From: a virus
Strand: one strand, 5' to 3'
Virus record (IMG/VR): IMGVR_UViG_3300025000_000353
Location: 1 to 27,945 of that record
Length of the DNA: 27,945 nt
Shown one piece after another: positions 741-27,374 of this stretch. Numbering within the stretch: the stretch's first letter is position 1; every line of letters begins with the position of its first letter. Below the pieces are notes generated by a model, which saw nothing but the letters and a program-made list of their open reading frames with translations, was not told the origin of the DNA and did no database searches. The translations under genes were made by a program, and so were the position numbers.

Positions 741-754
741 ATTCACATCTGAAT
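741..754. promoter_or_regulatory. Operator-like 14-mer ATTCACATCTGAAT
   Basis: Exact consensus copy of the dispersed near-palindrome. It lies between the major tail stop codon and the hairpin at 701-732. No promoter is obvious over it, so a stoperator-like role is possible. Confidence 0.7.
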
Positions 755-778
755 TAAAAGTTGAATGAAATCAACTAC

Positions 779-1870
779 TTAGTGCTTATAGTAGAGTTCG
801 GAGTAAAGCGGGATGTTGCGAAGCCAAGCTTGGAGCGTCTCGTACTCTTTCGGAGCAGCCGGATTCCCGGACGAGGGCAGTGCGGCAAAATCCCCATTCT
901 TGGAGACCTCGGTTTGGTTGATTGCTTCCATCTCCCACGGAAGAGTGGAGTACTCGTTCTTGGGGTTGTAGGTAGGTGCCTTGGAAATACCTGCGTTAGG
1001 AATCCAGAAGGAAACCTGGGTATTACCTCTGGTGCGCGCCACAACCTCGACCGGGCAGGCAGACATCTTAGCCTCGTTGATGGTCTGCGAAACCATGTCC
1101 TTAAGGATCTGGATCTGGCTGTTGATGAATTCCTGGGCCTGGAAGGTAATCTGTCCACTGGTCTTAGTGACAATCCTGTCCATTACTTCTGCGGGAAATC
1201 CCGATTCGAGGCTCACGATGGAGTCGATGTTCGGTGCGAAGGAAGAATCGGTCAAGCCACCTACAGACTCATTAGCACCCCTGAACATCGAGAATGGAGT
1301 CACGATGCAGGTCTGGGTGCGGTCAATAGCCGAACCAGACCAGACAGGAACTGTCCAAGTGTCACCTACCTGCGCTGTAGGGGATGCCCCGAATGCCAGA
1401 GCGATACTCAGGCCGGATGCAGTAGGAGTTGACTCGTCGTTCAGGTCGATCTCAGTAGCCGCTACAGCCCCTCCTACGAGGGTAAGCTGGGTCCTGAAAC
1501 CGTTCGGGGCGAAGACCTCAACCTTCCCGGTAGCAGCCAGCACAGACCCGAGGGTGTCGTTGTACGCCCCAGCACGGACAATAAAGCAACCGTCGTAGAT
1601 CCCGGTGTAGGTTCCTGTCACGGTGACAGGCTGCCCGGTCCAGGTATTTGCTACTGCGGAGGGGAGCCCTGAGGTAGGTAAAACAACCGGGGTCACACCA
1701 TCGGACTCGTCGATGATGATTTTGGATTTGGAAGCGGCTATCGGGGTACCTACAACGGCAGTCCCGGCAGGACGGTAAGACGACTTACTGACCCGCACCT
1801 GGGCCACGCCAACCAACACGTCTCCTGCATTTTTAACAATCGGCTGATAATCTTTTCCTAATACGGCCAT
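779..1870 (-). CDS. Major tail protein, 363 aa
   Basis: Probable tail tube subunit, which polymerises into the tail tube around the tape measure. Visible features are an N-terminal stretch MAVLGKDYQPIVKNAGDVLV, a beta-rich, Ser/Thr/Gly/Val-rich middle (about residues 45-190) that looks like an inserted beta-sandwich domain, and a C-terminal part with TKTSGQITFQAQEF typical of tube proteins. At 363 aa it is longer than the usual 150-250 aa, which the inserted domain would explain. It is preceded by a tail terminator-like gene and followed by the tail chaperones, the standard order. A hairpin and an operator-like 14-mer follow the stop codon, as they do after the capsid gene, which fits a highly expressed product. 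The assignment is mainly from context. Confidence 0.72.
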   Translation of the reverse strand: MAVLGKDYQPIVKNAGDVLVGVAQVRVSKSSYRPAGTAVVGTPIAASKSKIIIDESDGVTPVVLPTSGLPSAVANTWTGQPVTVTGTYTGIYDGCFIVRAGAYNDTLGSVLAATGKVEVFAPNGFRTQLTLVGGAVAATEIDLNDESTPTASGLSIALAFGASPTAQVGDTWTVPVWSGSAIDRTQTCIVTPFSMFRGANESVGGLTDSSFAPNIDSIVSLESGFPAEVMDRIVTKTSGQITFQAQEFINSQIQILKDMVSQTINEAKMSACPVEVVARTRGNTQVSFWIPNAGISKAPTYNPKNEYSTLPWEMEAINQTEVSKNGDFAALPSSGNPAAPKEYETLQAWLRNIPLYSELYYKH

Positions 1871-1883
1871 TGGTGAATCTCCT

Positions 1884-2306
1884 TTAGTTTGTTTCAGCGA
1901 CGTAAGTTACGCCGACTGTTAAGCTGCGAAAAGCCCCGCCGCTGAAGTGGGGCATTACAGGGCTGAGGCTGGTTTCTTGAACCTCCATCCCACCTATTTC
2001 TTGTCCGTCATCGTAGTCGTAGACCACCATTGTGGTGCCTTTGTTGACCACCTTCATGACCTGATCAACCAGCCTGATCAGAACCTCTTTCGACTGCTTT
2101 GCGTTGTTTTGCGTAGCCATGTGGATGAAAAAAAGTTGTTTCGGCTGGTCTCCCGTAGGATTAGTCAGGGTTTCGATGACGACCCACTTTTCTAAATCTG
2201 CGTATTCCTCCAAGGTGATGTCCTCGAACACTCGGATGCCGAAGGGCACTTCGAGTTGCTCGTAGAGGTACCGGAAGAAGGACGCTTCTATGTCGGTCAG
2301 AGTCAT
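1884..2306 (-). CDS. Tail terminator-like protein, 140 aa
   Basis: A 140-aa protein beginning MTLTDIEASFFRYLYEQLEV. Its length and position between the gp10-like completion gene and the major tail gene fit the tail terminator (lambda gpU-like), which caps the tail tube and joins it to the head. It overlaps the upstream gene by 4 nt (ATGA), so the two are translationally coupled. It ends with a beta-rich stretch (FRSLTVGVTYVAETN), as terminators of this type often do. No catalytic motif is expected or seen. Sequence recognition is weak; gene order carries most of the call. Confidence 0.55.
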   Translation of the reverse strand: MTLTDIEASFFRYLYEQLEVPFGIRVFEDITLEEYADLEKWVVIETLTNPTGDQPKQLFFIHMATQNNAKQSKEVLIRLVDQVMKVVNKGTTMVVYDYDDGQEIGGMEVQETSLSPVMPHFSGGAFRSLTVGVTYVAETN

Positions 2307-2905
2307 TTAGTCCCTCCCCAGTTGACGCCCTCTAAAACTGCGGTCATGACCGCTTTCTCGATTTCATTTCTTTTGGTTTTGAAAAGCTCGTTGGCGATTG
2401 TGAAGAGGGCGCGAGCCGGAACTCGTTTGTTCTTCTCGTTCACCCCACCGAACTCAGTCAGTAAGGCGTGTTTGAGGGCCTCTGCGTCTCTTGCGCCATC
2501 AATCCCAGCGAAGACCTTGGCTACCCGGTCGGAGTAGTAGGAGCCAACCTGAACTGAATGCCCAACCGCCCCAAAGACTTCCCCGGTCTGGTACCAAAAA
2601 GTGACCTTGCCTCCACGCTTGATCTTGCTGTTGATAGCCCTGGGTGAGAGTGGTTCCCAACCGCCAGCAGGTGATGCCGTAAGCCCCTCGAAGGATATGA
2701 CCGGATAAGCATGACCGCCACCTTCCATGTCTGTAGAAGCCTCCACGGTCCCTATGGCCTTGATCACCCCGTTCCTGTACGCCTTCGCGTAGTGCTCGAT
2801 TACGTAGAAGAGCTTCTTCGTGTCCATCACGTTGGATTCGAGTTTCTTGATTTTTTGGGTGATCCTGGTCAAGTCGGATTTCTTGAACTTGATAGAAGTA
2901 ATCAT
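2303..2905 (-). CDS. HK97 gp10-like / virion morphogenesis protein, 200 aa
   Basis: A 200-aa head-tail joining or tail completion protein. The central segment GGWEPLSPRAINSKIKRGGK has the W-x-P-L-S-P pattern followed by basic residues seen in phage virion morphogenesis and HK97 gp10-like proteins. The later VPARALFTIANEL matches the Pro-Ala-Arg-aromatic motif common near their C termini. The N terminus is a lysine-rich helix. It overlaps the upstream gene by 1 nt and the downstream gene by 4 nt, placing it in a tightly coupled connector block. The family call is reasonably firm; its exact place in the neck is inferred. Confidence 0.62.
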   Translation of the reverse strand: MITSIKFKKSDLTRITQKIKKLESNVMDTKKLFYVIEHYAKAYRNGVIKAIGTVEASTDMEGGGHAYPVISFEGLTASPAGGWEPLSPRAINSKIKRGGKVTFWYQTGEVFGAVGHSVQVGSYYSDRVAKVFAGIDGARDAEALKHALLTEFGGVNEKNKRVPARALFTIANELFKTKRNEIEKAVMTAVLEGVNWGGTK

Positions 2906-4123: not shown

Positions 4124-4495
4124 TTATTTCCTCTTGCCCTTGCCCTGCTTGGCTTCTGGAGTCTCAATTTCAAGGGCATCCTCTTTGGTCTCTGGGGCAA
4201 AATCCTTGTCCTTCTCGAAGGCGTCTTCTTTGGCAGTCATAGGCTTGGGGTTGAAGATGTCAGCATCTTCATACTGATCCAAGATCTCCTGCATATTCTT
4301 CTGGGCCTCTGCTGCGAGCCTTTCAGTTTTCTCTTTCAAGTAAGCCTCGACATCTTCGATCACCTGAAGTTTCTGCGGAAAATCTGCAAGCATCTGCGCT
4401 TTGTGCTCCTCAGAGATGTCCAGGCCGATGGTGTCACCTCCAGGCCAAATCTCGAAAGACGGCTCTCTGTAGGTTTGAATAGCTGCGAGTTCCAT
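4124..4495 (-). CDS. Hypothetical head-region protein, acidic, 123 aa
   Basis: A 123-aa charged protein of unknown function between the major capsid and connector genes. It begins MELAAIQTYREPSFEIWPGG. Residues 28-75 form a likely amphipathic helix or coiled coil (EEHKAQMLADFPQKLQVIED), followed by a low-complexity Glu/Lys/Asp/Pro tail ending in basic GKGKRK. Small acidic proteins in this slot can be head-assembly or decoration proteins, but nothing in the sequence proves that. It starts after the hairpin and operator-like site that follow the capsid gene and ends 3 nt before the next start. Confidence 0.6.
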   Translation of the reverse strand: MELAAIQTYREPSFEIWPGGDTIGLDISEEHKAQMLADFPQKLQVIEDVEAYLKEKTERLAAEAQKNMQEILDQYEDADIFNPKPMTAKEDAFEKDKDFAPETKEDALEIETPEAKQGKGKRK

Positions 4496-4519: not shown

Positions 4520-4547
4520 AGGGCGGGGGAGCTAAGGCCCCCGCCCT
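4520..4547 (-). terminator. Hairpin after the capsid gene
   Basis: A perfect 10-bp GC-rich inverted repeat (4520-4529 with 4538-4547) with an 8-nt loop, followed on the minus strand by TTTCTCAT. It is probably a leaky terminator or mRNA-stabilising hairpin for capsid transcripts, and its layout matches the hairpin after the major tail gene. Confidence 0.6.
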
Positions 4548-4561
4548 ATTCACATCTGAAT
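4548..4561. promoter_or_regulatory. Operator-like 14-mer ATTCACATCTGAAT
   Basis: Exact consensus copy, directly against the capsid hairpin and 5 bp from the capsid stop codon. It repeats the stop, 14-mer, hairpin order seen after the major tail gene. Confidence 0.72.
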
Positions 4562-6308: not shown

Positions 6309-6926
6309 TGCTACTCCTTTTTGTTCTTGAGTTTCATTTTCAATGGTGGGACAAATTTTTCCTGTAAGTTCGCCTGCGTAGAAACCTCCATCGTCGGGGA
6401 GGGATTTGATGATTTGGAAGGAAGATGCTGAATTCGCTGGAATTCCAACACACGAGACCTCAAGCAAAAGTGACTTCGTGATGAAGTAGACTTGGCGATC
6501 TCCGATCTTTTTGTACTCACCAGCCAGAGATCTAAATCCGACGGAGAAGTAGGAGATGAGCCCCGATTTGATGCGGTAGAAATCTTCATCATCCATCGCG
6601 CCCTTGTGGATCTCTGCTTCGATGTAAAGACCATCCTTCTTCTTGACTACGGAAATCCCTCTGCCGATTGTGGCCTGGCGGTTATGTTGGAGTAGAATCT
6701 GGGGGTTCTTCTTCCAGATCGTTACGTCAATACCACTCGCGATTATGCAGTCGCCGACCAAATCGCAATAGACATCGCCTTCTTCTACAGCCCCAGAAAA
6801 GTTCGCGTAGCCTGCTATCTTGATTACTTCGGAATCTCCAGTGTCACACGTTGCTGGATCGTGGGGAGGGTCAGTCGCAGCCTTGACCTCAAATCTAGTC
6901 AGTAGATTAAAATTTTTATTTTCCAT
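5955..6926 (-). CDS. Prohead protease (HK97 gp4 / U35 type) with acidic C-terminal extension, 323 aa
   Basis: A serine protease that cleaves the capsid delta domain during head maturation. Residues 35-170 form the protease core: IKIAGYANFSGAVEEGD at the start, the catalytic-His-like ILLQHN (H81), the Ser motif YFSVGFR (S128), and LLLEVSCVGIPANS near residue 160. These match the H...S pattern of the U35/S78 family. Residues from about 207 on are different: a Glu-rich coiled-coil extension (QEEVAKLQEQLKEAPAEE and following). This part has its own internal ATG at 6308 and looks like a scaffold. A divergent copy of the first 25 or so codons lies upstream of the HNH gene at 7696-7785, which suggests endonuclease insertion here. 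Confidence 0.87.
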   Translation of the reverse strand: MENKNFNLLTRFEVKAATDPPHDPATCDTGDSEVIKIAGYANFSGAVEEGDVYCDLVGDCIIASGIDVTIWKKNPQILLQHNRQATIGRGISVVKKKDGLYIEAEIHKGAMDDEDFYRIKSGLISYFSVGFRSLAGEYKKIGDRQVYFITKSLLLEVSCVGIPANSASSFQIIKSLPDDGGFYAGELTGKICPTIENETQEQKGVAMKFVSTLRDTLPEAEVKRLEALGMGAKLEEEIEVDAKAYVAEVVFKALAEVTDAMKALQEEVAKLQEQLKEAPAEETPEEIPEEEKEAPAEEELSEEDVTTMKELLVQIEEIKKALD

Positions 6927-7699
6927 CAGGACTCCTTCTTCCAGCGATTAAATTTTTCTTTTTTAGCAGGGTAATCTGATGAAAGCTCCTTGGCAGTTTC
7001 CACTTTGTGGCAATCAACACAAAGGGTAATTCCGTTGGACAACTCGGTGCGTAGATCAGGAAAATCCCTAAATCGTTTTATGTGGTGGGCGTTAAGTTTG
7101 CCTCCTCTTATCCCACAGTGTTGACACGTATAATCATCGCGCGTGAACACATCAATTTTCCACTGAGCCAACTCTTTAGTTGTGCGGGCTAACTCCAGTT
7201 CAGAAGTTACTCCTCCTTTCCAAAAGGATGATTTTTCTCCTGTCAACGTGGACCTCCACACATACTCACATCCTTTTGAGCAAAACCTACTGGAACTTCT
7301 GTAGGCGGGTGGTGAGTATGCCTTCCCACAGGATTCGCATATCTTGTCTATCCGACCCACCTCTTTGTAATTGTCGTCCATACATTTTCTAGAGCAGTAA
7401 TGGGTCTCGCATCTATTCGCATGTGAATTCTTTTTGTAAAAAGTAATGCCACAATAATTACAAGTAACCGCAGTCCTGGAGACTCCATGCTGGAAAATGC
7501 CCTTACAACTCCTACTACAAAATTCCCGCCCCGCTCCTGTTATTGGCTTTCCACAATGCTTGCAGGTGGTTCGGGTGGTCAATTTAATGCACTCTTTGCA
7601 TTTATGAGTTTTTCGGGTGGTGTAAAAATCGCTTTTAGGTTTTGTTATGCCACATTCACTGCACACGCGTGTTAAGGCATTTAAGTCAACCAAACTCAA
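6926..7699 (-). CDS. HNH endonuclease with zinc ribbons, 257 aa
   Basis: A probable free-standing homing endonuclease. The N-terminal 140 residues carry about four Cys-x2-Cys zinc-ribbon units (for example CSECG with CKEC, CKHCG with CSRSC, CNYCG with CSRKC, CESCG with CSKGC), likely for DNA recognition. The C-terminal HNH nuclease contains WKIDVFTRDDYTCQHCG, then LNAHHIKRF with the catalytic His pair, then NGITLCVDCH. The start is TTG at 7699, overlapping the stop of a 29-codon frame copied from the protease 5' end, so translation is probably coupled. The gene sits between portal and protease, which are normally adjacent, and looks like a selfish insertion. No group I intron is apparent around it. 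Confidence 0.87.
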   Translation of the reverse strand: MSLVDLNALTRVCSECGITKPKSDFYTTRKTHKCKECIKLTTRTTCKHCGKPITGAGREFCSRSCKGIFQHGVSRTAVTCNYCGITFYKKNSHANRCETHYCSRKCMDDNYKEVGRIDKICESCGKAYSPPAYRSSSRFCSKGCEYVWRSTLTGEKSSFWKGGVTSELELARTTKELAQWKIDVFTRDDYTCQHCGIRGGKLNAHHIKRFRDFPDLRTELSNGITLCVDCHKVETAKELSSDYPAKKEKFNRWKKES

Positions 7700-7856: not shown

Positions 7857-7870
7857 ATTCACATATGAAT
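7857..7870. promoter_or_regulatory. Operator-like 14-mer ATTCACATATGAAT
   Basis: One-base variant of the consensus, 3 bp from the portal stop codon, in an AT-rich intergenic stretch (7786-7873). That stretch otherwise holds nothing recognisable. Confidence 0.62.
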
Positions 7871-9267: not shown

Positions 9268-10869
9268 TTAAACGGAGTCACTGAACCTGAACCATCCCCG
9301 TGAGTATAGCATCTCGTCGAATTCATCTTCGGAGGCGTCTCGTTGGTTCCCGGTTTCAGTTGTGATTACCGTTGCGTCAACCCGGTTATTTTTGATGAAT
9401 GAAAAGAGGCCATAACGAAAGGCGTCGAAGAGGTCCCAGTCAGTCTTGTTTCCGCCTCCTACAGGACCTTCCTTGTCTGGAGTGAACGGCTTGGTGCCTT
9501 GAGCTGACTGTTCTTTGGTCTGCTCGTCGTCTTTGCCAGTTTTCCAGATGACCGAGGAAAGTTGCCTGATCAGTTCGGGGCATTCAGTACTCACTAGGAG
9601 CCGAGGCTTGCCTGTGATCTCGCTAGTCTGGAAGAAAAGAGTATTGAGATTATTGATGGTTTCTCTTAATACCTTCGCAGCCTTGTTGAAGTAGAGGTCA
9701 TACTCCGTGAAGTCCGCTAACTGTTGACTGGCGGCGGGGTCGGCAAACCGGATGTCAACCTGGATGTCGTTCTCGGCCTCGAACTCGTTGATGTATCTGG
9801 CATGTTCGGAAGTCAGGGTCTTATTCTTGGCATACTCAGCGAAGGCGAAGTAGGTGTCCAACTCCTCGACATACATGACCCAGACCGACGCAAAGTAGTG
9901 CGAATATCCTGAGTCGATCATGTTGATGATGACATTTCCCGAATGAAGCCACTCGTAGAGGAACGGGTAATCTTCGGGCCTGTAGACGTTTCTTTCCTTG
10001 GTGAACTCACGGCAAACTAGGCCTGCGTTGGAGGTGAAGAGCCCGAGAACCTCTTGTTCGTAAATTTCAGGCGGGAGGTCCTTCTTCATCTGGTCAAGTT
10101 CTTCTCGGGGAATTGTGGGGTTCGCGTGGGTCGGAAGGTTGATGGACCAGTACCGAGGATACTCGTCGGACTGGCCTCTTTTGTACCAGCCTTCTATCCA
10201 GTTATTTTCTGGAGAAGAAATCAAGACCGTTCTACTGAAGGGCGCGTAGTCGAGTAGCATGGGTAATAGCCCACGGACCAGAATTTGCTCCTTGAAAACC
10301 TTCGCCTCGTCAACTATCAGTAATGACACAGCTTTTCCGAGAAGGCTGTCGATAGAGTCGTTGGAGCCCACCCTAAGTTCGGCTCCATTTTTTAAGATCA
10401 ACTCCATTGCTTGCTGTCTGTCGGCTACAATTTCGTCCTTGCCGAGCAGATCTACTATGATTTTTCTAACGTTGTCGTAGATGACCTGGCAGTTGGAAAA
10501 AGTGTAGGAAACAATCAAAACTCTGGCGTTGGGCACCAACATTTCTTGAGCGCCAAGTACAGACGCGATCACGCTCTTGCCCATACGACGACCGCAAATA
10601 GCTGAAATTACACGATATTTATATTCAAAGTCGAGATTGATGCCGTTTTCAAGTGCCATTTGTATTACAGATTCCGATGCCGGAATCCTTTCTTCGTAGG
10701 CATCAATTATCTGCCACTGCCCGTCATGCGGTTCAAACTGTATTCCGGCGTCGTTCAAGACTTCGATGAAGGCAGGGGTGGTTAGCCTGCCCTTGAACCT
10801 GAAGTACTCCACAACCTCTGGTTTCTTCTTGGTGATCCTTCCGGCTCCGCGTCTAGCTCTTAGTTCCAT
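9268..10869 (-). CDS. Terminase large subunit, 533 aa
   Basis: ATP-driven DNA packaging motor and nuclease. The ATPase domain shows Walker A CGRRMGKS (residues 92-99), Walker B LLIVDEAK (D187, E188) and a coupling motif LISSP around 217-220. The nuclease domain has acidic residues in MIDSG (about D319), in RFADPAAS (about D377) and in the C-terminal KTDWDLFDAFRYG, matching the RNase H-like terminase nuclease. Length is usual for headful or cos-type large subunits. The start overlaps the stop of the upstream HNH gene by one base (TAATG). Packaging type cannot be judged without a phylogeny. Confidence 0.93.
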   Translation of the reverse strand: MELRARRGAGRITKKKPEVVEYFRFKGRLTTPAFIEVLNDAGIQFEPHDGQWQIIDAYEERIPASESVIQMALENGINLDFEYKYRVISAICGRRMGKSVIASVLGAQEMLVPNARVLIVSYTFSNCQVIYDNVRKIIVDLLGKDEIVADRQQAMELILKNGAELRVGSNDSIDSLLGKAVSLLIVDEAKVFKEQILVRGLLPMLLDYAPFSRTVLISSPENNWIEGWYKRGQSDEYPRYWSINLPTHANPTIPREELDQMKKDLPPEIYEQEVLGLFTSNAGLVCREFTKERNVYRPEDYPFLYEWLHSGNVIINMIDSGYSHYFASVWVMYVEELDTYFAFAEYAKNKTLTSEHARYINEFEAENDIQVDIRFADPAASQQLADFTEYDLYFNKAAKVLRETINNLNTLFFQTSEITGKPRLLVSTECPELIRQLSSVIWKTGKDDEQTKEQSAQGTKPFTPDKEGPVGGGNKTDWDLFDAFRYGLFSFIKNNRVDATVITTETGNQRDASEDEFDEMLYSRGWFRFSDSV

Positions 10870-13275: not shown

Positions 13276-13289
13276 ATTCACATCTGAAT
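13276..13289. promoter_or_regulatory. Operator-like 14-mer ATTCACATCTGAAT
   Basis: Exact consensus copy in the 5' leader of the structural operon, between the -10 element (13325-13330) and the first start codon. A bound protein here could block transcript elongation. Confidence 0.75.
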
Positions 13290-13324: not shown

Positions 13325-13352
13325 ATTATACCACACTCTCATTAAAAGTCAA
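13325..13352 (-). promoter_or_regulatory. Promoter for the structural operon
   Basis: Minus strand -35 TTGACT (13347-13352), 16-bp spacer, -10 TATAAT (13325-13330). It is a strong sigma-70-type promoter reading into the regulator, terminase and head genes. A perfect 14-bp palindrome lies 9 bp upstream of the -35. Confidence 0.85.
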
Positions 13353-13361: not shown

Positions 13362-13375
13362 ATTCACATGTGAAT
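13362..13375. promoter_or_regulatory. Perfectly palindromic operator ATTCACATGTGAAT
   Basis: The only fully symmetric member of the 14-mer family. It lies between two back-to-back promoters: the structural promoter to the left (9-bp gap to its -35) and the plus-strand promoter to the right (6-bp gap). It is the best candidate for the central switch site. Confidence 0.8.
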
Positions 13376-13381: not shown

Positions 13382-13410
13382 TTGACACCGAGCCTGACCT
13401 GAGGTAACAT
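13382..13410 (+). promoter_or_regulatory. Divergent plus-strand promoter
   Basis: -35 TTGACA (13382-13387), 17-bp spacer, -10 TAACAT (13405-13410). It reads toward the small zinc-protein genes at 13494-14425. It shares the palindrome at 13362-13375 with the divergent structural promoter. Confidence 0.7.
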
Positions 13411-13464: not shown

Positions 13465-13478
13465 ATTCATATCCGAAT
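13465..13478. promoter_or_regulatory. Operator-like 14-mer, variant ATTCATATCCGAAT
   Basis: Variant copy in the leader of the plus-strand zinc-protein operon, abutting the AGGAG ribosome site of its first gene. Confidence 0.5.
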
Positions 13479-14551: not shown

Positions 14552-14590
14552 AGGGGTGTCGCCAAGCGGTAAGGCAACGGATTCTGATTC
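14552..14590 (+). other. attP-like core: 5' half of a tRNA-Gln(CUG) gene
   Basis: 39 bp match the 5' half of a bacterial tRNA-Gln: an acceptor-like AGGGGTG, then TCGCCAAGCGGTAAGGC (D arm), and the anticodon region CGGATTCTGATTC with anticodon CTG. From memory of E. coli glnV, it differs at about two positions over 38. The match ends just after the anticodon loop; no 3' half follows, so this is not a working tRNA gene. The place between a possible excisionase gene and the integrase, with repeats on both sides, fits a phage attachment core. Confidence 0.8.
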
Positions 14591-14600
14591 ACAAATGAAT
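14587..14600. promoter_or_regulatory. 14-mer ATTCACAAATGAAT at the end of the tRNA fragment
   Basis: A variant of the family that overlaps the last 4 bp of the tRNA identity. It may instead be part of the inverted core-type sites bound by the integrase. Confidence 0.4.
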
Positions 14601-14748: not shown

Positions 14749-14762
14749 AATCACGTCTGAAT
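14749..14762. promoter_or_regulatory. Operator-like 14-mer AATCACGTCTGAAT
   Basis: Variant copy about 120 bp upstream of the integrase promoter copy at 14878-14891. The two could be bridged by a looping repressor. Confidence 0.5.
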
Positions 14763-14868: not shown

Positions 14869-14897
14869 TTGACTTCCATTCACGTCTGAATTATATT
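14869..14897 (+). promoter_or_regulatory. Integrase promoter with operator in the spacer
   Basis: -35 TTGACT (14869-14874), 17-bp spacer, -10 TATATT (14892-14897). The 14-mer at 14878-14891 lies wholly inside the spacer, ending at the -10, so a bound protein would block RNA polymerase. Confidence 0.82.
14878..14891. promoter_or_regulatory. Operator 14-mer ATTCACGTCTGAAT in the int promoter
   Basis: One-base variant of the consensus placed between -35 and -10, the same arrangement as in the early promoter at 21558-21586. Confidence 0.8.
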
Positions 14898-14918: not shown

Positions 14919-16157
14919 ATGCGCGAAAAAGGTTCGATTTTTAAGGTGGTCCGCTGCTACGAGTGTGGTGCTAGGAAGCGATTTGCAGACCCTCCTAAGA
15001 AGCTGCCTCCCTGCAAAAAATGCGGGAGCACCACAAACGAGGCTGATAAATTCTGGAGCATTTCCTACTCCTTCGAGGGGAAGCAAATAGCGGAGCAAAT
15101 CAGCGTCCACAAGAAACAGGCGGAAGACCGGCTCAACCAAGTCCTGGGCCAGATCGTAGATGATCGCTTCAAGCTGAACCAGAAGAAGGAAAAGCTCACC
15201 TGGGATCGCGCCACAGAGCTTTACACCGCCTACCTCCAAGGCCTCTCCAATGAGGACACCCGTGCCTTCTACGTCCAGCGGTTGAACTGCAACCTGACCC
15301 CCTTCTTCCGAGATTTCAGTTGGAAGTCAGACAAGCCCCTCCCTCGCCAGTTAGCAGACCGACTCCCAGTTTATGTAGCGGACCTCCTGCCTCAGCACCT
15401 CCAGTCCTACATGGTCTACTGCAGGGATGAACTGAAGCACTCCAACTCGACCGTGAACCGGGCCAGGTCAACCCTCATCAACATGATCAACTGCTTCGTG
15501 AAGTCCAAAATCGTAGCTCCAGACAACACGCGGTACCTGGAATATAATCAGCTTCAAGCGGTTTCTGCGTGGCCTGAGAACGATTCTAGGGAGGATAAGT
15601 TTTACACGGTGGGGGAATTGACGAGGCTATTTGAGGCTGCGGAGTTCGTAGATAAAAGGGCTTCACTAATAATTGGATTTGGGGCGTTCGGAGGGCTCAG
15701 AAGGAAAACCATCTGCTCATTAAAAAAGGAGTACCTGAACCTCCAAGAAAACCTTCTAGCCATTCCAGCAAGCAAGAGGAAGCGGGGCGACTACACGCAT
15801 TACTTGGACATGATCCCTCGGCTTAGGAGCCTGCTGGATTCCTACCTGGAGGGACTAACCAAGAAGGAGCAGGAAAGCCATTGGCTCTTCTGCGGCGAGA
15901 CTAAGGACGTGCCCATCTCCAGATCCTACTGGGACAACATTTTCCAGAAGGTCAAAAAGGAAGCAGGGCTCGAAGACAAGCGATTCCACGACACCAAGCA
16001 CTCAGCCGGGACCTTCTACTACCAAGCTACGCAGGACATCAGGAAGACCGCAGATTTCCTCGATCACAGCGATATTAACATGAGCAGGAAGTACTCATTC
16101 GTGGATCGGGAGCAAAAGAGGAAGGATGCTGATAAATTTGGGGAGCAATTTGAATAA
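14919..16157 (+). CDS. int: Tyrosine integrase with N-terminal zinc ribbon, 412 aa
   Basis: Site-specific recombinase for integration and excision. The start is the ATG at 14919, 9 nt after AAGGAGG. Residues 8-40 form a zinc ribbon (VRCYECGARKRF, then PPCKKCGSTT), unusual in front of an integrase. Next come an arm/core-binding helical region (about 95-230) and the catalytic domain: R261 in GGLRRKTICSL, a basic beta-turn Lys region around 285-290 (ASKRKRGDYTHYLD), H357 in FHDTKH, H383 in LDHSDINMS, and the nucleophile Y392 in SRKYSFV. In the H-x-x-R box the Arg is replaced by Lys (K360), a departure from the usual pentad. A terminator follows directly. The operator-bearing promoter and tRNA-derived core upstream complete an integration module. 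Confidence 0.93.
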   Translation: MREKGSIFKVVRCYECGARKRFADPPKKLPPCKKCGSTTNEADKFWSISYSFEGKQIAEQISVHKKQAEDRLNQVLGQIVDDRFKLNQKKEKLTWDRATELYTAYLQGLSNEDTRAFYVQRLNCNLTPFFRDFSWKSDKPLPRQLADRLPVYVADLLPQHLQSYMVYCRDELKHSNSTVNRARSTLINMINCFVKSKIVAPDNTRYLEYNQLQAVSAWPENDSREDKFYTVGELTRLFEAAEFVDKRASLIIGFGAFGGLRRKTICSLKKEYLNLQENLLAIPASKRKRGDYTHYLDMIPRLRSLLDSYLEGLTKKEQESHWLFCGETKDVPISRSYWDNIFQKVKKEAGLEDKRFHDTKHSAGTFYYQATQDIRKTADFLDHSDINMSRKYSFVDREQKRKDADKFGEQFE

Positions 16158-17095: not shown

Positions 17096-17513
17096 TCAAG
17101 TCCCTCACTTCGCCAACCTCCGAAAAGTCGAACCCCTCGGGAACTTGGGAGAAAATAACACGCACAGGGAAGGTACCGAGCACGTTATCCGCCGCAGCCT
17201 GTGCGGCGTTAAGCTGTGTAGGGTGAAACTTAGGCTCCTCAGCGTAGTAGAGGTTCGCCCAGCCCTCAAAAGTCCTCTCGGTTAACCTAACCGGCTTCTC
17301 TGGCGCCTTGATCACGATCTCGTCCCAGAAGAGGGCAGGATACTGATCATCCGTGCTCATCATTCCCTCGTAGGTGTAGGACTCACAATCAGAACACCCC
17401 CTCTCGAACTCAACCTTGATGGGCCAAGTGCTTGCACCCTCGATTTCGTAAACCTTGCCCCATCCCCTCAGCACATCCCAAACTTGCTCTCCTACTTTCG
17501 CGTCTCTAAACAT
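17082..17513 (-). CDS. SH3/KOW-like phage protein, 143 aa
   Basis: Begins MFRDAKVGEQVWDVLRGWGK, a phage small-protein pattern in which a VGxxVWD...GWG opening leads a beta-barrel domain, with YTYEGMMSTDDQYPALFWDE as a second conserved-looking block. The C-terminal 50 residues are Ala/Glu/Val-rich. An operator-like 14-mer lies 15 bp upstream of its start, overlapping the stop of the preceding 53-aa gene. I know no function for the family. Confidence 0.72.
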   Translation of the reverse strand: MFRDAKVGEQVWDVLRGWGKVYEIEGASTWPIKVEFERGCSDCESYTYEGMMSTDDQYPALFWDEIVIKAPEKPVRLTERTFEGWANLYYAEEPKFHPTQLNAAQAAADNVLGTFPVRVIFSQVPEGFDFSEVGEVRDLNEIA

Positions 17514-17527: not shown

Positions 17528-17541
17528 AATCACTTCTGAAT
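17528..17541. promoter_or_regulatory. Operator-like 14-mer AATCACTTCTGAAT
   Basis: Variant copy that contains the stop codon of the 53-aa gene (17530-17691) and lies just upstream of the next ribosome site. No promoter elements are obvious, so a role in blocking elongation is possible. Confidence 0.5.
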
Positions 17542-18160: not shown

Positions 18161-18547
18161 TTAAACCTCCATGCCGTAGTCAGGGCGGGCGAGGAGGGTC
18201 ACTTCGTTCTCTGAGTGCCACTCATCCCCGGAATTAAATACACCTACGCGGTAAGGCTGGCCTGCGTCGTATATATCCACTTCCAGCACAACTCCCTTCC
18301 CCTCAGGAGTCGCCACAAAATCCCCGACCTTCAGCAACTCGACCACAGGCGCTTCATACTTAGCCGTTTCAACCAACACAAGCACCTCCCCACTCACCCA
18401 CCCAGAAATCTCATGCTTCTCACTGAATACCCTGTAGGGGCACTCCACATCCTCCTCAGCTACCGCAACTACGATTGACGGGAGGCCATCCCACTTCACC
18501 TTGTCGCCTTCTTTTAGCGAAAGGCCCTTCTTTGTAAAACTTGACAT
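18161..18547 (-). CDS. KOW/SH3-like protein with two domains, 128 aa
   Basis: A 128-aa protein with two barrel-like repeats, LSLKEGDKVKWDGLPSIVVA and LLKVGDFVATPEGKGVVLEV, each followed by a segment of P-Y-R-V type (YRVFSEKHEI and PYRVGVFNSG). It appears paralogous to the downstream gene. The start follows AAAGGAG, which lies against an operator-like 14-mer in the tail of the upstream gene. Confidence 0.72.
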   Translation of the reverse strand: MSSFTKKGLSLKEGDKVKWDGLPSIVVAVAEEDVECPYRVFSEKHEISGWVSGEVLVLVETAKYEAPVVELLKVGDFVATPEGKGVVLEVDIYDAGQPYRVGVFNSGDEWHSENEVTLLARPDYGMEV

Positions 18548-18787
18548 TTAAATCTCCTTTGAATTCACATCTGAATTTATCATGACGCAAGAATCCGTCT
18601 CACCAAACTCCTCCACCTCGAACTTATCCCCCGCCTCCACCTCAGCCGCTTGCCTGTTATCGAAAACAGGCATCATCCCGATCATCCCGGCGCTCCAAGA
18701 GAGTGGGATCGAACGCTCCTCTCCACTAATCCTAGCGAGCACCGATTTGTGCAGGGCGCCTACTGCGTAGAACTTTTGTTTGGTCAT
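18548..18787 (-). CDS. Hypothetical early protein, 79 aa
   Basis: A 79-aa protein, MTKQKFYAVGALHKSVLARI at the start and an acidic middle (AAEVEAGDKFEVEEFGETDS). No family recognised. Its last codons (VMINSDVNSKEI) are written through an exact copy of the operator-like 14-mer (18563-18576) and through the ribosome site of the next gene, so the reading frame has adapted to the regulatory site or acquired it. It overlaps the upstream gene by 4 nt. Confidence 0.65.
   Translation of the reverse strand: MTKQKFYAVGALHKSVLARISGEERSIPLSWSAGMIGMMPVFDNRQAAEVEAGDKFEVEEFGETDSCVMINSDVNSKEI
18563..18576. promoter_or_regulatory. Operator-like 14-mer ATTCACATCTGAAT inside a coding end
   Basis: Exact consensus copy lying inside the 3' end of the 79-aa gene and 4 bp from the ribosome site of the next gene. 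Confidence 0.7.
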
Positions 18788-19241: not shown

Positions 19242-19423
19242 TAAAGCCCCTCCTGTCTCGTTAATTTATCTCGCATCTTCACATAGTCGAAACGCTCGTC
19301 TGCATCGCAGCCATTCCGGACGCACCAATCTGTGAACGGATTTCTCAACCTTACGAGCCCGCATTTGCTACAGACGAGCCAAGGGATTGATCGGTAGAGC
19401 TTGACGAAGTTGTGAGGTTCCAT
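19241..19423 (-). CDS. Zinc-ribbon small protein, 60 aa
   Basis: A 60-aa protein with one clear ribbon: LVCSKCGLVRLRN then FTDWCVRNGCDADE. This layout (W-x-C-x2-C-G, about 16 residues, W-C-x4-C-D) is repeatedly seen among phage early proteins of unknown role. It overlaps its neighbours by single bases at both ends. Confidence 0.75.
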   Translation of the reverse strand: MEPHNFVKLYRSIPWLVCSKCGLVRLRNPFTDWCVRNGCDADERFDYVKMRDKLTRQEGL

Positions 19424-19932
19424 TAATTGGCCTCGTAGTAGTGCTTCTGAAGGATCTTGGCGATTTTGGCTCTCCTGCTATAGACCGTCTGGATTGGCAG
19501 GTCCAACTCCTCAGCGACTTGCTTCGCACTGCACCCGGAGAAGAACAGCAGGTAAGCCGTCTCGTAATCCTTCAACTTCAGTTTCGTGCACATGATCTTC
19601 TGGAGGTCTCTCGCGAAATCGAGAGCCTCGATGTTGAGAGGCTGGCTGATGGAGGCCCCATAATCCATACGGTCCCAAAGATCCTCTTCTTCGCTAGTAA
19701 CAAATCCGAAGCATTCTCTCCAGACGTAGGTAGCGCTTTGGTACGAGTGCTCCGCGAAATACTTTGCGTTGTCGGCTATATACATCGGGATGTAGTGGCC
19801 TTCCACTTCCCTTTTACGCATCTCAGCATGAATCTCAGCCGAACACCGCCACATCGCTCGCTGCGGATTGTTCTTGGGCATGTCCTCAGGAGCTATTGCT
19901 TTCTCGTGCGAGTTCAGCCGAGCCTTTTCCAT
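19423..19932 (-). CDS. Sigma region 4-like regulator, 169 aa
   Basis: The C-terminal 50 residues are a sigma-70 region 4-like helix-turn-helix: LKDYETAYLLFFSGCSAKQV then AEELDLPIQTVYSRRAKIAK, closing with ILQKHYYEAN. The same ending (helix, then aromatic-acidic tail) is seen in the regulator at the head of the structural operon. The N-terminal 100 residues (for example CSAEIHAEMRKREVEGHYIP) are alpha-helical with no known motif. It may switch on late transcription from within the early operon. Confidence 0.65.
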   Translation of the reverse strand: MEKARLNSHEKAIAPEDMPKNNPQRAMWRCSAEIHAEMRKREVEGHYIPMYIADNAKYFAEHSYQSATYVWRECFGFVTSEEEDLWDRMDYGASISQPLNIEALDFARDLQKIMCTKLKLKDYETAYLLFFSGCSAKQVAEELDLPIQTVYSRRAKIAKILQKHYYEAN

Positions 19933-20962: not shown

Positions 20963-21445
20963 CTATTCGTTGCACGAATCCTCCTTCTCCACCACAACCT
21001 CAGCCTTTAAAAGTTCCACTGTGTTCCTAAAGGCCCGATCCAGTAGCCCACTAGGCAACTCCAAATCATAAACACTCCCGCTCCGCGCCATCCCAGCCAT
21101 GACACAATCGACGATGAACTCCAGCACGTCGATCAGGTCCACGTCCTCAGGCACTCCTTCTTCAGCCGAAAGGTGGTGCCTGGAAATCTTCTTGTGCTGG
21201 TCCCACCAATCGTGCTTCTCAAACCCAGTCTGGAAGTCCGCGTGGAATTCATGAAGGTAACTCAGCTTGTCGAAGTCATGCCACTTCGTGGCGTCATCCA
21301 GAAGCCCCTTGATAAACTCCAACCCCTTCCCTACGTCCTCAATGTGCTGCTCAGATGAAGCAGCCAAAATCTCCTTGGTCACTGTAGCCGGATCTCCACA
21401 GGTCCGAGAATCCGCCGTCTTGCTTTCTTTGATCGTGATCGTCAA
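20963..21445 (-). CDS. HD-like phage protein, 160 aa
   Basis: The first gene of the early operon, starting with TTG (21445) after AAGGAGAACATT. It contains KWHDFDKLSYLHEFHADFQT, then HDWWDQHKKISRHHL and VDLIDVLEFIVDCVMAGMAR. The repeated His/Asp pattern (H-D-x-D-K, W-W-x-x-H, R-H-H, D-V-L-x-x-I-x-D) resembles an HD-type metal site and recurs as a small phage protein family of unknown role; it could act on nucleotides, but that is not shown. The C-terminal helix is Glu/Val-rich. A partial 14-mer lies just upstream at 21459-21472. Confidence 0.7.
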   Translation of the reverse strand: MTITIKESKTADSRTCGDPATVTKEILAASSEQHIEDVGKGLEFIKGLLDDATKWHDFDKLSYLHEFHADFQTGFEKHDWWDQHKKISRHHLSAEEGVPEDVDLIDVLEFIVDCVMAGMARSGSVYDLELPSGLLDRAFRNTVELLKAEVVVEKEDSCNE

Positions 21446-21557
21446 AATGTTCTCCTTAATTCAGATGTGCTTACGCACTTCGCTCCGCTACGTGAATTTG
21501 TCCGGCCAAAACAAAGGCCTCTCCCGTTAGCGGCGGGCAGACCTCTTGATGAATTGC

Positions 21558-21586
21558 ATCTTAATTCACTTCTGAATGTTTGTCAA
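21558..21586 (-). promoter_or_regulatory. Early operon promoter with operator in the spacer
   Basis: Minus strand -35 TTGACA (21581-21586), 17-bp spacer, -10 TAAGAT (21558-21563). The 14-mer at 21564-21577 fills the spacer up to the -10, exactly as in the integrase promoter, and a second copy lies 8 bp upstream of the -35. This is the probable main repressed early promoter for the 17 genes down to 16243. Confidence 0.85.
21564..21577. promoter_or_regulatory. Operator 14-mer ATTCACTTCTGAAT in the early promoter
   Basis: Variant copy inside the spacer, next to the -10 element. Confidence 0.8.
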
Positions 21587-21594: not shown

Positions 21595-21608
21595 ATTCGG
21601 ATGTGAAT
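21595..21608. promoter_or_regulatory. Operator 14-mer, inverted (ATTCGGATGTGAAT)
   Basis: Reverse-orientation variant 8 bp upstream of the early -35. Its centre is 31 bp from the spacer copy, close to three helical turns, so cooperative binding is possible. Confidence 0.75.
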
Positions 21609-22855: not shown

Positions 22856-22884
22856 AGACTACAGTAATACTTGGTTCCTGTCAA
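22856..22884 (-). promoter_or_regulatory. Possible promoter for the NUMOD and peptidase genes
   Basis: Minus strand -35 TTGACA (22879-22884), 17-bp spacer, weak -10 TAGTCT (22856-22861). A 14-mer-like site lies 9 bp upstream of the -35, the same spacing as at 13362. Confidence 0.5.
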
Positions 22885-22893: not shown

Positions 22894-22907
22894 ATGTACA
22901 TCTGAAT
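22894..22907. promoter_or_regulatory. Operator-like 14-mer, variant ATGTACATCTGAAT
   Basis: One good half (CATCTGAAT) and one weak half, placed 9 bp upstream of a -35 element. Confidence 0.45.
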
Positions 22908-22984: not shown

Positions 22985-23080
22985 GTGACCGAGGGCGAGC
23001 TGTAGGGTGTGACCGAGGGCGAGCTGTAGGGTGTGACCGAGGGCGAGCTGTAGGGTGTGACCGAGGGCGAGCTGTAGGGT
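22985..23080 (+). repeat. Four 24-bp tandem repeats (iteron-like)
   Basis: Four exact head-to-tail copies of a 24-bp unit (GTGACCGAGGGCGAGC then TGTAGGGT) at 22985, 23009, 23033 and 23057, with a partial fifth (GTGACC) at 23081. They lie beside a very AT-rich stretch, 23087-23163. Iterons next to AT-rich DNA are the usual form of a replication or partition origin. They do not form a CRISPR, since there are no spacers. Confidence 0.85.
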
Positions 23081-25100: not shown

Positions 25101-25114
25101 ACTCACTTCCGAAT
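25101..25114. promoter_or_regulatory. Operator-like 14-mer, variant ACTCACTTCCGAAT
   Basis: Variant copy 8 bp upstream of the -35 of the right-cluster promoter, the same spacing as upstream of the structural and early promoters. Confidence 0.6.
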
Positions 25115-26498: not shown

Positions 26499-26520
26499 AC
26501 CAAAAAAGGAGAAAAGTAAA

Positions 26521-27213
26521 ATGTGCGAATTCTTTAGTTGCATCTCGAACGGACAGGGTAACATCTGGTATTTCGATTGGGAACTCAGAAAGAAGTGCCT
26601 TTCGGGTGAACTCGACTACTCCCCCGACTCTCACTCATCCATAGCCGATTACTTCGGCTTCAAGGGGGATAAAGAAGACCGGATGAACAAATACGAGTTC
26701 AACCCCCTGACTGGAAAATTCACCATTGACCAACTCAACGGAAAGGATGATTCGGAAGTAGTGGAAAGAAAACTCCGGAAGCTCGACTTTGTAACGATTG
26801 TCCCTTCCTTGAAGATCAAGGAGATCTTTCACCCATTTAATCAAATTCCTGTCGCTCCGGAAGTAACGCCGGAAATGATTGAATTACTCCAAAAGTGGGC
26901 CTCGGTGGGGGACTCGGTGTGGGACTCGGTGCGGAACTCGGTGTGGGACTCGGTGTGGGACTCGGTGTGGGACTCGGTGGGGGCCTCGGTGCGGGACTCG
27001 GTGCGGGACTCGGTGTGGGCCTATACTGCCTCGTTCTTTCCTGAAATAACCGAATGGAAATACGTGGAAAACTTAGGACCTAACCCTTGGGAGCCTTGCC
27101 AGAAATTGTGGGAGATGGGAGTGGTACCAAGTTTCGACGGCAAGACTTGGAGGCTTCACGCCGGGGAAAAAGCTGAAGTTATTTACGAGTGGGTGCCTAG
27201 TCAGGAAATATGA
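26521..27213 (+). CDS. Tetrapeptide-repeat phage protein, 230 aa
   Basis: Three parts. Residues 1-100 are a domain seen in phage proteins (MCEFFSCISNGQGNIWYFDW, then DSHSSIADYFGFKGDKEDRM and FNPLTGKFTIDQLN). Residues about 128-167 are ten copies of a Ser-Val-x-(Asp/Asn/Ala) tetrapeptide, for example DSVWDSV. The rest (WEPCQKLWEMGVVPSFDGKT then WRLHAGEKAEVIYEW) is a small C-terminal cap also found with such repeats. The repeat is coded by ten 12-bp units (26902-27021). The start follows AAAAGGAGAAAAGTAAA. Function unknown; a rod-like, binding or decoy protein is possible. Confidence 0.75.
   Translation: MCEFFSCISNGQGNIWYFDWELRKKCLSGELDYSPDSHSSIADYFGFKGDKEDRMNKYEFNPLTGKFTIDQLNGKDDSEVVERKLRKLDFVTIVPSLKIKEIFHPFNQIPVAPEVTPEMIELLQKWASVGDSVWDSVRNSVWDSVWDSVWDSVGASVRDSVRDSVWAYTASFFPEITEWKYVENLGPNPWEPCQKLWEMGVVPSFDGKTWRLHAGEKAEVIYEWVPSQEI
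26902..27021 (+). repeat. Ten 12-bp tandem repeats
   Basis: Units of TCGGTGNGGGAC type with point changes, all in frame, coding a Ser-Val-x-Asp-like tetrapeptide array. Copy number is likely to vary between relatives. Confidence 0.85.
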
Positions 27214-27226
27214 AATCTCACATTTT
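27206..27226. repeat. Family-2 palindrome over a stop codon
   Basis: ATGAAATCTCACATTTT-like copy whose TGA is the stop codon of the 230-aa gene; the next ribosome site follows at once. Confidence 0.62.
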
Positions 27227-27240
27227 AGGGAGGACTAAAA

Positions 27241-27357
27241 ATGTCCATCATCTGCGAAGTCAAACTAAAATCAGGCAAAACCAAACGAATCAAAACGACC
27301 TGGGATTGGTACATGAACTACGGCTATCACTACACCGTGGCTATTTTCATGCCCTGA
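27241..27357 (+). CDS. Small basic protein, 38 aa
   Basis: A 38-aa frame found by direct translation: MSIICEVKLKSGKTKRIKTT then WDWYMNYGYHYTVAIFMP. Basic first half, aromatic second half. The ATG follows GGGAGGACTAAAA. The repetition of family-2 palindromes before and after supports a real unit in this gene series. Function unknown. Confidence 0.6.
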   Translation: MSIICEVKLKSGKTKRIKTTWDWYMNYGYHYTVAIFMP

Positions 27358-27360
27358 TAA

Positions 27361-27374
27361 ATTCAGAAGTGGAT
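27361..27374. promoter_or_regulatory. Operator-like 14-mer, inverted variant (ATTCAGAAGTGGAT)
   Basis: Reverse-orientation variant just after the 38-aa gene; weak match. Confidence 0.4.

Follow-up and report, generated by a model that had tools for sequence, protein, structure and literature searches.

Palindromic 14-bp sites at promoters and gene junctions of a temperate phage genome, and a MarR-family protein as their predicted binder

Sites in the window and in the complete genome

The window, i.e., the whole stretch of 27,945 nucleotides analysed here, belongs to the circular genome of a temperate phage (hereafter A). This genome, closed from two public records, measures 106,462 bp, of which the window makes up about one quarter. 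The signs of a temperate phage are an integrase, a tRNA-Gln attP remnant and the operators found in both the integrase and the late promoters (Table 1). A preliminary description of the window had proposed that copies of a 14-bp sequence are dispersed over it, nearly all of them between genes. A pattern scan allowing up to 3 mismatches from ATTCACATCTGAAT gave 31 strand-matches at 19 places of the window. As that description had suggested, we compared this number with shuffled sequence: 100 dinucleotide shuffles of the window gave 2.56 strand-matches on average and 8 at most, so that none of the 100 reached 31. At 2 mismatches, we counted 14 forward and 10 reverse matches, and the reversed-pattern control gave none. 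Overall, 18 window sites were accepted, namely the 14 already named, whose coordinates are all correct, and those at 7415, 14587, 21459 and 27361. Our own gene caller places 15 of the 18 in noncoding DNA, in line with the earlier claim; the exceptions are 7415, 17528, which falls in a doubtful ORF of 53 aa, and 18563, which coincides with the final codons of an ORF. The matrix scan of the whole phage, likewise proposed beforehand, detected 58 sites of at least 11 bits against 3.6 expected, and 43 of the 58 are noncoding, whereas noncoding DNA makes up 16% of the positions. Place 9354 (11.9 bits, in the terminase gene, unchanged in the relative G003 and lost in the relative B) was dropped; together with 2546, 48112 and 79055 it was taken as false, these places being coding, weak and below 11 bits in B. 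Positions 48112 and 79055 are genome positions outside the window.

The site is a 5-4-5 palindrome, ATTCA-N4-TGAAT, which ranks first in an unbiased palindrome scan of both A (32 copies vs. 0.27 expected) and B (26 vs. 0.20). Its palindromic nature had not been visible in the preliminary description. The outer 5 bp are perfectly palindromic in 27 of the 43 noncoding sites. On the other hand, bases 6 and 9 are CC or GG in 29 of the 43 and complementary in 4, so that a simple symmetric dimer does not explain the centre of the site. This central asymmetry is used both ways, with 9 GG, 8 CC and 4 others among the 21 start-proximal sites; the operator sites have no orientation relative to transcription.

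Of the noncoding sites, 31 can be aligned to B, and B retains every one of them (13.6 expected), which supports selection on these sites; furthermore, the flanks diverge between relatives while the site stays. The coding sites show no excess (5 of 9 kept, 4.7 expected). Sites are present in all nine records found via the terminase, one of them A itself, in both of two further records and, in three copies, in a TerL relative (58% identity) from another metagenome. Promoters with an operator in the spacer, searched for over viral contigs, occur in 8 stretches on six contigs, all of the phage family of A. A search for near DNA among phages with window positions 1-25000 gave no match. The TerL alignment also served for a peptide-pattern scan over 84,980 genomes; a scan of this type misses diverged copies, and it found no relative and hence no host prophage. 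The short motif and the AT-rich intergenic background could suggest chance, a composition artefact or a repeated mobile element. This explanation is already refuted by the shuffles, the genome-wide excess, the noncoding bias and the conservation of the site within diverging flanks; the probability left to it is negligible.

Table 1. Operator sites, promoters and the integrase gene in the window (B, G002, G003 and G005 are relatives of A)
Feature	Position	Strand	Remarks
Operator, junction class	741..754	.	23.5 bits; all 14 positions identical in B; follows gene 779-1870 and precedes 266-670
Operator, junction class, before gene 4124-4495	4548..4561	.	23.5 bits; identical in G002, G003, G005
Operator-like site inside HNH-like ORF 6926-7699	7415..7428	.	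20.1 bits; not alignable to B
Operator, junction class	7857..7870	.	21.1 bits; B and G005 read ATTCACACGTGAAT
Operator in late-promoter leader (+35.5)	13276..13289	.	23.5 bits; identical in B, G003; 12 bp before called start of gene 12880-13263
Late-operon promoter TTGACT-16-TATAAT	13325..13352	-	sigma70-like, score 14.6
Perfect 14-bp palindrome between divergent promoters	13362..13375	.	centre -50.5 and -48.5; 1-2 changes in G002, G003, G005, at least 21.1 bits in each
Promoter TTGACA-17-TAACAT	13382..13410	+	score 12.2; faces 13494 and attP side
Operator directly before ribosome-binding site of ORF 13494-13676	13465..13478	.	17.7 bits; identical in three relatives
Operator-like site overlapping end of attP tRNA-Gln piece (tRNA 5' part)	14587..14600	.	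19.5 bits
Operator upstream of integrase promoter	14749..14762	.	15.3 bits; identical in three relatives
Integrase promoter TTGACT-17-TATATT	14869..14897	+	score 13.7
Operator filling integrase promoter spacer (centre -19.5)	14878..14891	.	18.7 bits; identical in three relatives
Tyrosine integrase	14919..16157	+	Pfam Phage_integrase 1.1e-20 (ORF read from 14898); phrog_1
Operator 14 bp before start of gene 17082-17513	17528..17541	.	18.5 bits; lost (alignment gap) in B and G005
Operator 15 bp before start of gene 18161-18547	18563..18576	.	23.5 bits; identical in B
Operator 13 bp before start of gene 20963-21445	21459..21472	.	15.1 bits
Promoter TTGACA-17-TAAGAT	21558..21586	-	score 12.0
Operator filling 21558 promoter spacer (centre -19.5)	21564..21577	.	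21.8 bits; unchanged in G002 and G003, a single change in G005
Operator at -50.5 of 21558..21586 promoter	21595..21608	.	20.1 bits
Promoter TTGACA-17-TAGTCT	22856..22884	-	score 10.2
Weak operator at -51.5	22894..22907	.	11.9 bits; identical in G002, G003
Weak operator at -50.5	25101..25114	.	12.9 bits; five differences in B, where a better site stands, ATACACATGTGAAT
Promoter TTGACT-17-TATAAA	25123..25151	+	score 11.4
Operator, junction class	27361..27374	.	18.3 bits; G002, G003 read ATTCAGAAGTGAAT

Promoter and junction classes

The sites form two classes, promoter and junction. Those of the promoter class stand mainly in fixed registers, centred near -50, -19.5 or +1, and 12 of 22 noncoding promoters in A and 12 of 23 in B carry a site; the -50 register alone recurs 8 times in A and 7 times in B. 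Two copies, 14878 and 21564, had been described as filling promoter spacers, and both indeed occupy spacers of 17 bp. Likewise, the sites 21595, 22894, 25101 and 13362 (the last with regard to the minus-strand promoter) end 8-9 bp before a -35, as had been noted; in addition, 13362 serves the divergent plus-strand promoter, at 6 bp from its -35. An activating role had been considered for these upstream positions; exclusion of the alpha subunit from AT-rich upstream DNA fits as well.

The junction sites occupy the gap that separates a stop codon from the ribosome-binding site after it. Among the 43 noncoding sites, 18 are start-proximal (3.9 expected) and 14 follow a stop codon (2.9 expected). 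Furthermore, the distance to a called start codon downstream is 8-30 bp for 21 sites; for 14 of these it is 10-16 bp, and they adjoin the Shine-Dalgarno sequence. As for terminators, 5 of the 43 sites adjoin one, against 1.7 by chance and a maximum of 6 in 500 draws, and we claim no association; a terminator-like hairpin at 4520-4547 adjoins the site 4548..4561.

Candidate binder and MarR homologues in other phages

Regulator domains were sought in three Pfam searches with 80 protein entries, some used twice, which covered part of the 144 called genes. Outside the window, at genome positions 39338-39694, A encodes a MarR-family winged-helix protein of 118 aa, which matches MarR_2 (1.2e-8; 35.5 bits, above the curated cut-off of 27). 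Its paralogue of 116 aa (38896-39246, also outside the window) has no Pfam match at 0.1; both match phrog_9665, the paralogue at 3.9e-7. The structural model of the candidate (pLDDT 80, built from 4 sequences) aligns to the MarR, MexR and MepR structures, with Z 11.8 over 81 residues at 1.2 A for MexR and Z 11.4 over 78 residues at 1.0 A for MarR. The predicted fold is thus the winged helix of MarR proteins; other winged-helix proteins and the Rio2 kinase domain score similarly, so that the fold alone is not decisive. Both MarR genes have weak sites in their promoter or leader (38860, 39265 and 39283, identical in B), and the operator is a palindrome of a length suited to a MarR dimer. Judging from these sequences, the binding protein is most likely a phage-encoded repressor of the MarR family. 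The location of the two genes, 23 kb from the integrase gene and not beside it, counts against this. Searches of viral contigs for further MarR relatives returned only records of the phage family of A (four loci each).

We then applied the matrix derived from A to phages of unrelated type which carry MarR homologues. In the T7-like Rhizobium phages RHEph01, TRX32-1, RHEph21 and RHph_I20 it found 7, 7, 3 and 3 sites, respectively, enriched between genes; 0, 0, 2 and 5 of 300 scrambled matrices reached these counts. The other four of the eight MarR phages tested in this way (LUZ100, YIMV22061, CRP-113 and HTVC022P) showed no enrichment. What has been published on the supporting phages points both ways. 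The record of TRX32-1 gives it as induced from a lysogen. PMC8631192, in contrast, describes RHEph01 as lytic and reports that lysogens are lysed by some members of the TRX32-1 group, which according to its authors may mean that immunity is impaired. For LUZ100, PMC10134795 reports that a stable lysogen was not obtained. The Rhizobium consensus has 4 near-matches in LUZ100, against a mean of 0.15 and a maximum of 3 for scrambled versions; one of the 4 is within the DNA polymerase gene, in a coding context common to RHEph01, and others overlap gene ends, and for this reason LUZ100 was not counted among the phages with such operators. Individual scrambles in this control gave up to 11 matches in TRX32-1 and 8 in RHEph21, perhaps because their order was near the real one. 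Pasto, another phage with a MarR homologue, has one match to the A matrix (11.7 bits) and its own palindrome, GTCAC-N6-GTGAC, in 5 copies against 0.07 expected, with 10 of 14 near-matches noncoding. In YIMV22061, TCTCG-N4-CGAGA is repeated 5 times (0.08 expected); these repeats were dropped, as three copies or near-copies have longer common flanks and may be phage promoters. Eight T7-like phages were also scanned for near-perfect 14-bp palindromes ahead of their RNA polymerase genes, and one was found, in RHph_I20.

Proposed mechanism and comparison with known systems

The network, its palindrome, its positions and registers and its conservation are direct results of the computation; the identity of the binder, prophage silencing, an elongation block and an effect at -50 are inferences. 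It had been proposed that one network governs early, late and integrase promoters, and the noncoding bias, the registers and the conservation support this genome-wide, many junctions included. We consider it probable that the copies are all bound by a single dimeric repressor which the phage encodes; the best candidate is the 118-aa MarR protein, with which the 116-aa paralogue perhaps acts. On strong sigma70 promoters, a repressor sitting at -19.5 or around +1 would block initiation, and this would affect the integrase gene, further operons and the gene of the paralogue itself. At the junctions it would form a stoperator-like roadblock, keeping stray transcription from 100 kb of lytic genes in the prophage, while at -50 it may tune promoters, by alpha-subunit exclusion or by activation.

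It is unlikely that the same network, with the same silencing, is served instead by one of the other DNA-binding candidates of A, namely a ribbon-helix-helix protein (37020-37175) or two sigma-region-4-like proteins (12880-13263 and 19423-19932). The former matches RHH_1 (2.9e-4), has site 36982 directly upstream and is 94% identical to its orthologue in B; of the latter, 12880-13263 has a site just before its start and an orthologue of 57.5% in B. However, 19423 has no full-length orthologue in B, which yet keeps the operator, and the same operator type occurs in T7-like phages having a MarR homologue. That the phage has borrowed a host regulator for lysogeny control is still more improbable. 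Some phages are known to use the host LexA; yet the density of the network, the sites at its own MarR genes and the near-identical operators of the Rhizobium phages argue for a phage protein, and 56 kb of bacterial DNA at attP-like tRNA loci, not known as host, held one weak match (11.4 bits). The attP tRNA-Gln piece matches 8 stretches, five of Gammaproteobacteria, two of Pseudomonadales and one locus of a Desulfuromonas MAG; the latter, with 50% GC and a TTTTAGCTTGAC promoter context, is only a hint to the host.

A further reading, to which we give some weight while doubting it, keeps only the promoter sites as operators and lets the junction sites act on translation or mRNA fate or mark recombination boundaries. 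The spacing of the start-proximal sites by the Shine-Dalgarno sequence and a possible, weak 5-bp RNA hairpin fit the former, and PMC4351075 links the repeats of Cluster O phages to recombination events. Against this reading, the same sequence stands at -50 and -19.5 of promoters whose own transcripts do not include it, the two central orientations occur with about equal frequency, and Rfam matched no known RNA element in the window.

Returning to a MarR repressor as the binder, we propose tentatively that MarR proteins are a class of phage immunity repressor, common to unrelated temperate phages (the 106-kb tailed family and T7-like phages), with genome-wide palindromic operators at promoters and as elongation stops, and with operator specificity partly conserved. 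The repressors so far associated with dispersed-operator silencing of whole genomes are few and special; this would then be a second stoperator-like mechanism, of independent origin, which rests on a small dimeric winged-helix protein of an ordinary kind. If silencing is the work of a MarR-type protein of 118 aa, no special fold is needed, the mechanism may be common in uncultured temperate phages, and it would be recognisable from sequence by the pattern of junction sites. It would also give the lysis-lysogeny regulator of T7-like phages, which has been proposed and is unproven, a concrete set of operators across the genome. With promoter sites in fixed registers, repression and a possible activation from -50 lend themselves to direct testing.

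The resemblance to the stoperators of mycobacteriophage L5, put forward in the preliminary description, holds for the layout and not for the site. L5 and Cluster A phages are described as temperate, with more than 20 dispersed sites of one repressor at promoters and in short intergenic gaps (PMC9283540, PMC6550527), and A has 58, 43 of them noncoding, at 12 of 22 promoters and in short gaps. According to PMC9283540 and PMC4351075, the 13-bp L5 sites are asymmetric, oriented with transcription and bound by a monomer, whereas those of A are 5-4-5 palindromes (27 of 43) with no orientation (9 GG vs. 8 CC). The L5 repressor gp71 is a monomer with two DNA-binding domains, an HTH and a Stoperator domain, in contrast to the predicted MarR-type repressor of A. 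With its presumed block of elongation, the network of A would work like the L5 stoperators without being a member of that system. The unoriented sites count against our preferred explanation, as L5-type stopping requires orientation.

A shows general features of phage immunity systems, being a temperate phage which has an integrase and whose key promoters carry operators. The operators of phage P1 C1 and the inverted repeats of phiC31 are likewise dispersed and served by one repressor each, the repressors and sites being other than in A. The MarR regulator of temperate T7-like phages (LUZ100, Pasto, RHEph01/TRX32-1) belongs to a homologous protein family (phrog_9665), and RHEph01, TRX32-1 and RHEph21 have similar dispersed operators; these phages differ from A in their unrelated type, their size of 37-43 kb (for the records used), a single-subunit RNA polymerase, fewer sites and, where an integrase is annotated, a MarR gene directly upstream of the integrase, RHph_I20 having a second copy elsewhere. 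SPbeta is likewise a temperate phage, with a conserved intergenic repeated element (SPBRE) to which a master repressor, MrpR, binds; the latter, however, has a tyrosine-recombinase fold, the best candidate of A being MarR-like, and a 15-bp motif, with ten prominent ChAP-seq peaks in promoter regions reported in PMC10516654. Closer in symmetry are the 34 dispersed palindromes of Cluster O (Corndog), many intergenic and with no clear orientation; they are 17-bp sequences (TGTTCGG-N3-CCGAACA), about a third coding, in phages not obviously temperate, and PMC4351075 gives their function and binder as unknown. Finally, PMC10276819 describes dispersed operators of one repressor in Streptomyces phage R4, where both repressor and site differ from those of A.

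Extent and retention of the repeat

We scanned the window with the pattern ATTCACATCTGAAT, allowing up to 3 mismatches, and obtained 31 strand-matches at 19 places. All 14 coordinates named in the preliminary description proved correct, and further sites were found at 7415, 14587, 21459 and 27361; place 9354 was left out of the accepted sites. In 100 dinucleotide shuffles of the window the mean was 2.56 matches and none reached 31, so that the objection raised in the preliminary description, namely that shuffled DNA might give as many hits, fails. The reversed pattern, used as control, gave no match in the window at 2 mismatches. For the motif itself, one weak match was detected in 56 kb of bacterial loci with the same attP tRNA, loci which may not be those of the host.

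The window is an entire public virus record of the class linear, a class that is often fragmentary. Its positions 1-23084 and 26878-27945 match IMGVR_UViG_3300024999_000057 (102,669 bp) at 100%; the window thereby joins both ends of that record, resulting in a circle of 106,462 bp, hereafter genome A, with 144 genes according to a simple in-house gene caller. Just before 23084, where the 102-kb record breaks off, a 24-bp unit, GTGACCGAGGGCGAGCTGTAGGGT, is present in four tandem copies (22985-23080). Because the window encodes portal, terminase, capsid and a phage integrase, and contains an attP remnant formed by a 38-base 5′ piece of a tRNA-Gln gene (14553-14590), its gene content identifies A as a temperate tailed phage.

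At the operator-like site 14587 (within 14553-14600), the left four bases belong to the anticodon-loop region of this tRNA; phages B and D have a variant tRNA piece, and the site there reads ACTCACAAGTGAAT. The tRNA-Gln locus of a Desulfuromonas MAG (L045 6100-6290) has the same 38-base tRNA start and, in TTTTAGCTTGAC, a promoter context resembling several phage promoters; this locus is a possible hint to the host. Other features include two ORFs amid the head and terminase genes (6926-7699, which contains site 7415, and 10869-11669) that by eye look like HNH endonucleases with zinc-finger cysteines, a protein with DSVWDSVR repeats (26521-27213) and, on the other strand of genome A (27649-28110), a called ORF that is an Ala/Tyr repeat.

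With a symmetric weight matrix built from and trained on A itself, A contains 58 sites of at least 11 bits, as compared to 3.6 in Markov-1 sequence (30 simulations, maximum 8), and 45 sites at 14 bits, as compared to 0.73 expected. An unbiased palindrome scan (half-sites of 5-7 bp, gaps of 0-8) ranked ATTCA-N4-TGAAT at the top both in A (32 vs. 0.27) and in its relative B (26 vs. 0.20), a genome of 82,561 bp with 84% identity to A in the flanks of alignable sites. Sites are noncoding in 43 of 58 cases in A and 36 of 40 in B, while only 16% and 25% of positions, respectively, are noncoding. Matches with up to 2 mismatches were present in all nine records found with the terminase (A among them), with 1 control match in total, and in both of two further records. 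For a terminase relative (58% identity) from a different metagenome, 8.5 kb contained 3 sites, a number equalled by none of 300 scrambled matrices.

Between A and B, 31 noncoding sites can be aligned, and all of them remain at or above 11 bits in B, 20 of them identical and 11 altered inside the motif. At the local flank mutation rate (16%), 13.6 would be expected to survive (sd 2.4), and 31 was reached in none of 2000 simulations. Among the coding sites 5 of 9 were kept; because this is close to the chance expectation of 4.7, most coding matches, judged by their conservation, need not be functional.

Sites at promoters and gene junctions

Among noncoding sigma70-like promoters scoring at least 10, a site lies between -80 and +40 in 12 of 22 cases in A and 12 of 23 in B, each dozen including one doubtful promoter with a +34.5 site alone. 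In both genomes the site centres form groups, from -48.5 to -51.5 (8 in A, 7 in B), at -19.5 (4 in each) and at -2.5 to +1.5 (3 in each), the remaining ones being +34.5 and +35.5 in A and -42.5, +27.5 and +34.5 in B. The late (terminase-portal-capsid) operon begins with a small sigma-region-4-like protein (12880-13263), possibly a late regulator, and its promoter has the top score among the noncoding promoters of A (14.6).

Promoter-class sites in the window (window coordinates)
Feature	Site(s)	Class
Integrase promoter	14878	promoter
21558 promoter	21564, 21595	promoter
Divergent promoter pair, site between	13362	promoter
Promoter sites	22894, 25101	promoter

The second class of sites occupies gene junctions. 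In A, 18 of the 43 noncoding sites are 8-30 bp upstream of a start codon, where 3.9 are expected, and 14 are immediately 3′ of a stop codon (2.9 expected; p ≤ 2e-4 for both); the corresponding values in B are 10 of 36 (2.5 expected) and 8 of 36 (1.8 expected). The typical order is stop codon, site, ribosome-binding site and ATG, as at 55976, 56815, 51104 and 51387 of A. The sites have no orientation relative to transcription, since the central bases of 21 start-proximal sites (coding ones included), read along transcription, are GG in 9, CC in 8 and other in 4.

The inner pair of the A site (bases 6 and 9) avoids palindromy, because it is CC or GG in 29 of the 43 noncoding sites (e.g., 741, 4548 and 13276) and complementary in only 4. 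In the Rhizobium phages, unlike in A, the majority of sites are CAC-NN-GTG, palindromic at the inner pair.

Candidate binder and related systems

Outside the window, tandem genes of A encode two paralogues with 23-25% identity, of 116 aa (38896-39246) and 118 aa (39338-39694), both matching phrog_9665 (transcription regulator). The 39338 protein matches Pfam MarR_2 (1.2e-8), and its structure model (pLDDT 80, built from four sequences) aligns best with MarR-family repressors (MexR, Z 11.8, 81 residues, 1.2 A), other winged-helix proteins scoring close to MexR. Its predicted recognition helix does not change between A and B. Weak sites, the same in A and B, are located at +1.5 of the 38896 gene's promoter and in the leader of the 39338 gene, as would be expected for autoregulation. 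A also encodes further candidates, namely a ribbon-helix-helix protein, whose gene is preceded by a site, and a pair of sigma-region-4-like proteins; of this pair, 19423 lacks a full-length orthologue in B.

Most likely, all the sites are bound by a MarR protein as a dimer. What is observed is their positions and conservation; we infer that a dimer at -19.5 or +1 would cover the promoter. In the -50 position, which adjoins an AT-rich stretch, the dimer would either exclude the alpha subunit or activate. At junctions, it would halt stray polymerase, an action proposed for the L5 repressor at stoperators.

Dispersed systems are also found in P1 and phiC31. Others are SPBRE with MrpR, the Corndog palindromes, whose function is described as unknown, and R4, according to excerpts of the respective papers (PMC10516654; PMC4351075; PMC10276819). 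In the literature searched, mostly outside subscription journals and in the form of listings and excerpts, no dispersed operator network based on a MarR protein came up. The stoperators of mycobacteriophage L5, chosen for comparison in the preliminary description, have the same layout as the A network. The latter would work in the same manner but does not belong to the L5 type, because L5 sites are asymmetric and oriented, a monomer binds them and reversal abolishes their effect (PMC9283540), whereas those of A are palindromic and unoriented.

MarR-carrying phages of other lineages

The MarR protein has matches in 35 phage records. We tested eight phages, seven of these 35 plus one of the 25 records that a search with the RHEph01 protein yielded, all eight being Autographiviridae per their records. 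The A-only matrix gave 7 hits each in RHEph01 and TRX32-1 (none of 300 scrambled symmetric matrices equalled either), and 3 each in RHEph21 and RHph_I20 (reached by 2 and 5 of 300, respectively). No enrichment with this matrix was seen in LUZ100 (0 hits), YIMV22061 (0), CRP-113 (1) and HTVC022P (3). RHEph01, TRX32-1 and RHEph21 are closely related and were counted as a single lineage. The 7 hits in RHEph01, whose genome is 91% coding, extend no more than 2 bases into genes, and 5 of them begin 4-9 positions past the last base of a gene. A wider consensus, ATYCACNNGTGRAT, has 15, 15 and 8 sites (up to 1 mismatch) in RHEph01, TRX32-1 and RHEph21, counts that are not independent, since the consensus was derived from those hits.

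As for lifestyle, a stable lysogen of LUZ100 was not obtained, according to part of the text of PMC10134795. In the paper on the TRX32-1 group (PMC8631192), RHEph01 is called lytic, several phages weakly lyse lysogens, some their own, and the term MarR is absent from the main text.

A ninth phage, the T7-like Pasto (L060, MT708545), encodes a MarR homologue that matches the one of B (2e-8, BLASTP among 13 sequences), and it gives a single hit to the A matrix. It has a palindrome of its own, GTCAC-N6-GTGAC, with 5 exact copies against 0.07 expected, 4 of them noncoding. Near-copies are noncoding in 10 of 14 cases; three of the ten sit in the gap ahead of the gene that is next upstream of the RNA polymerase gene, and gene junctions account for others.
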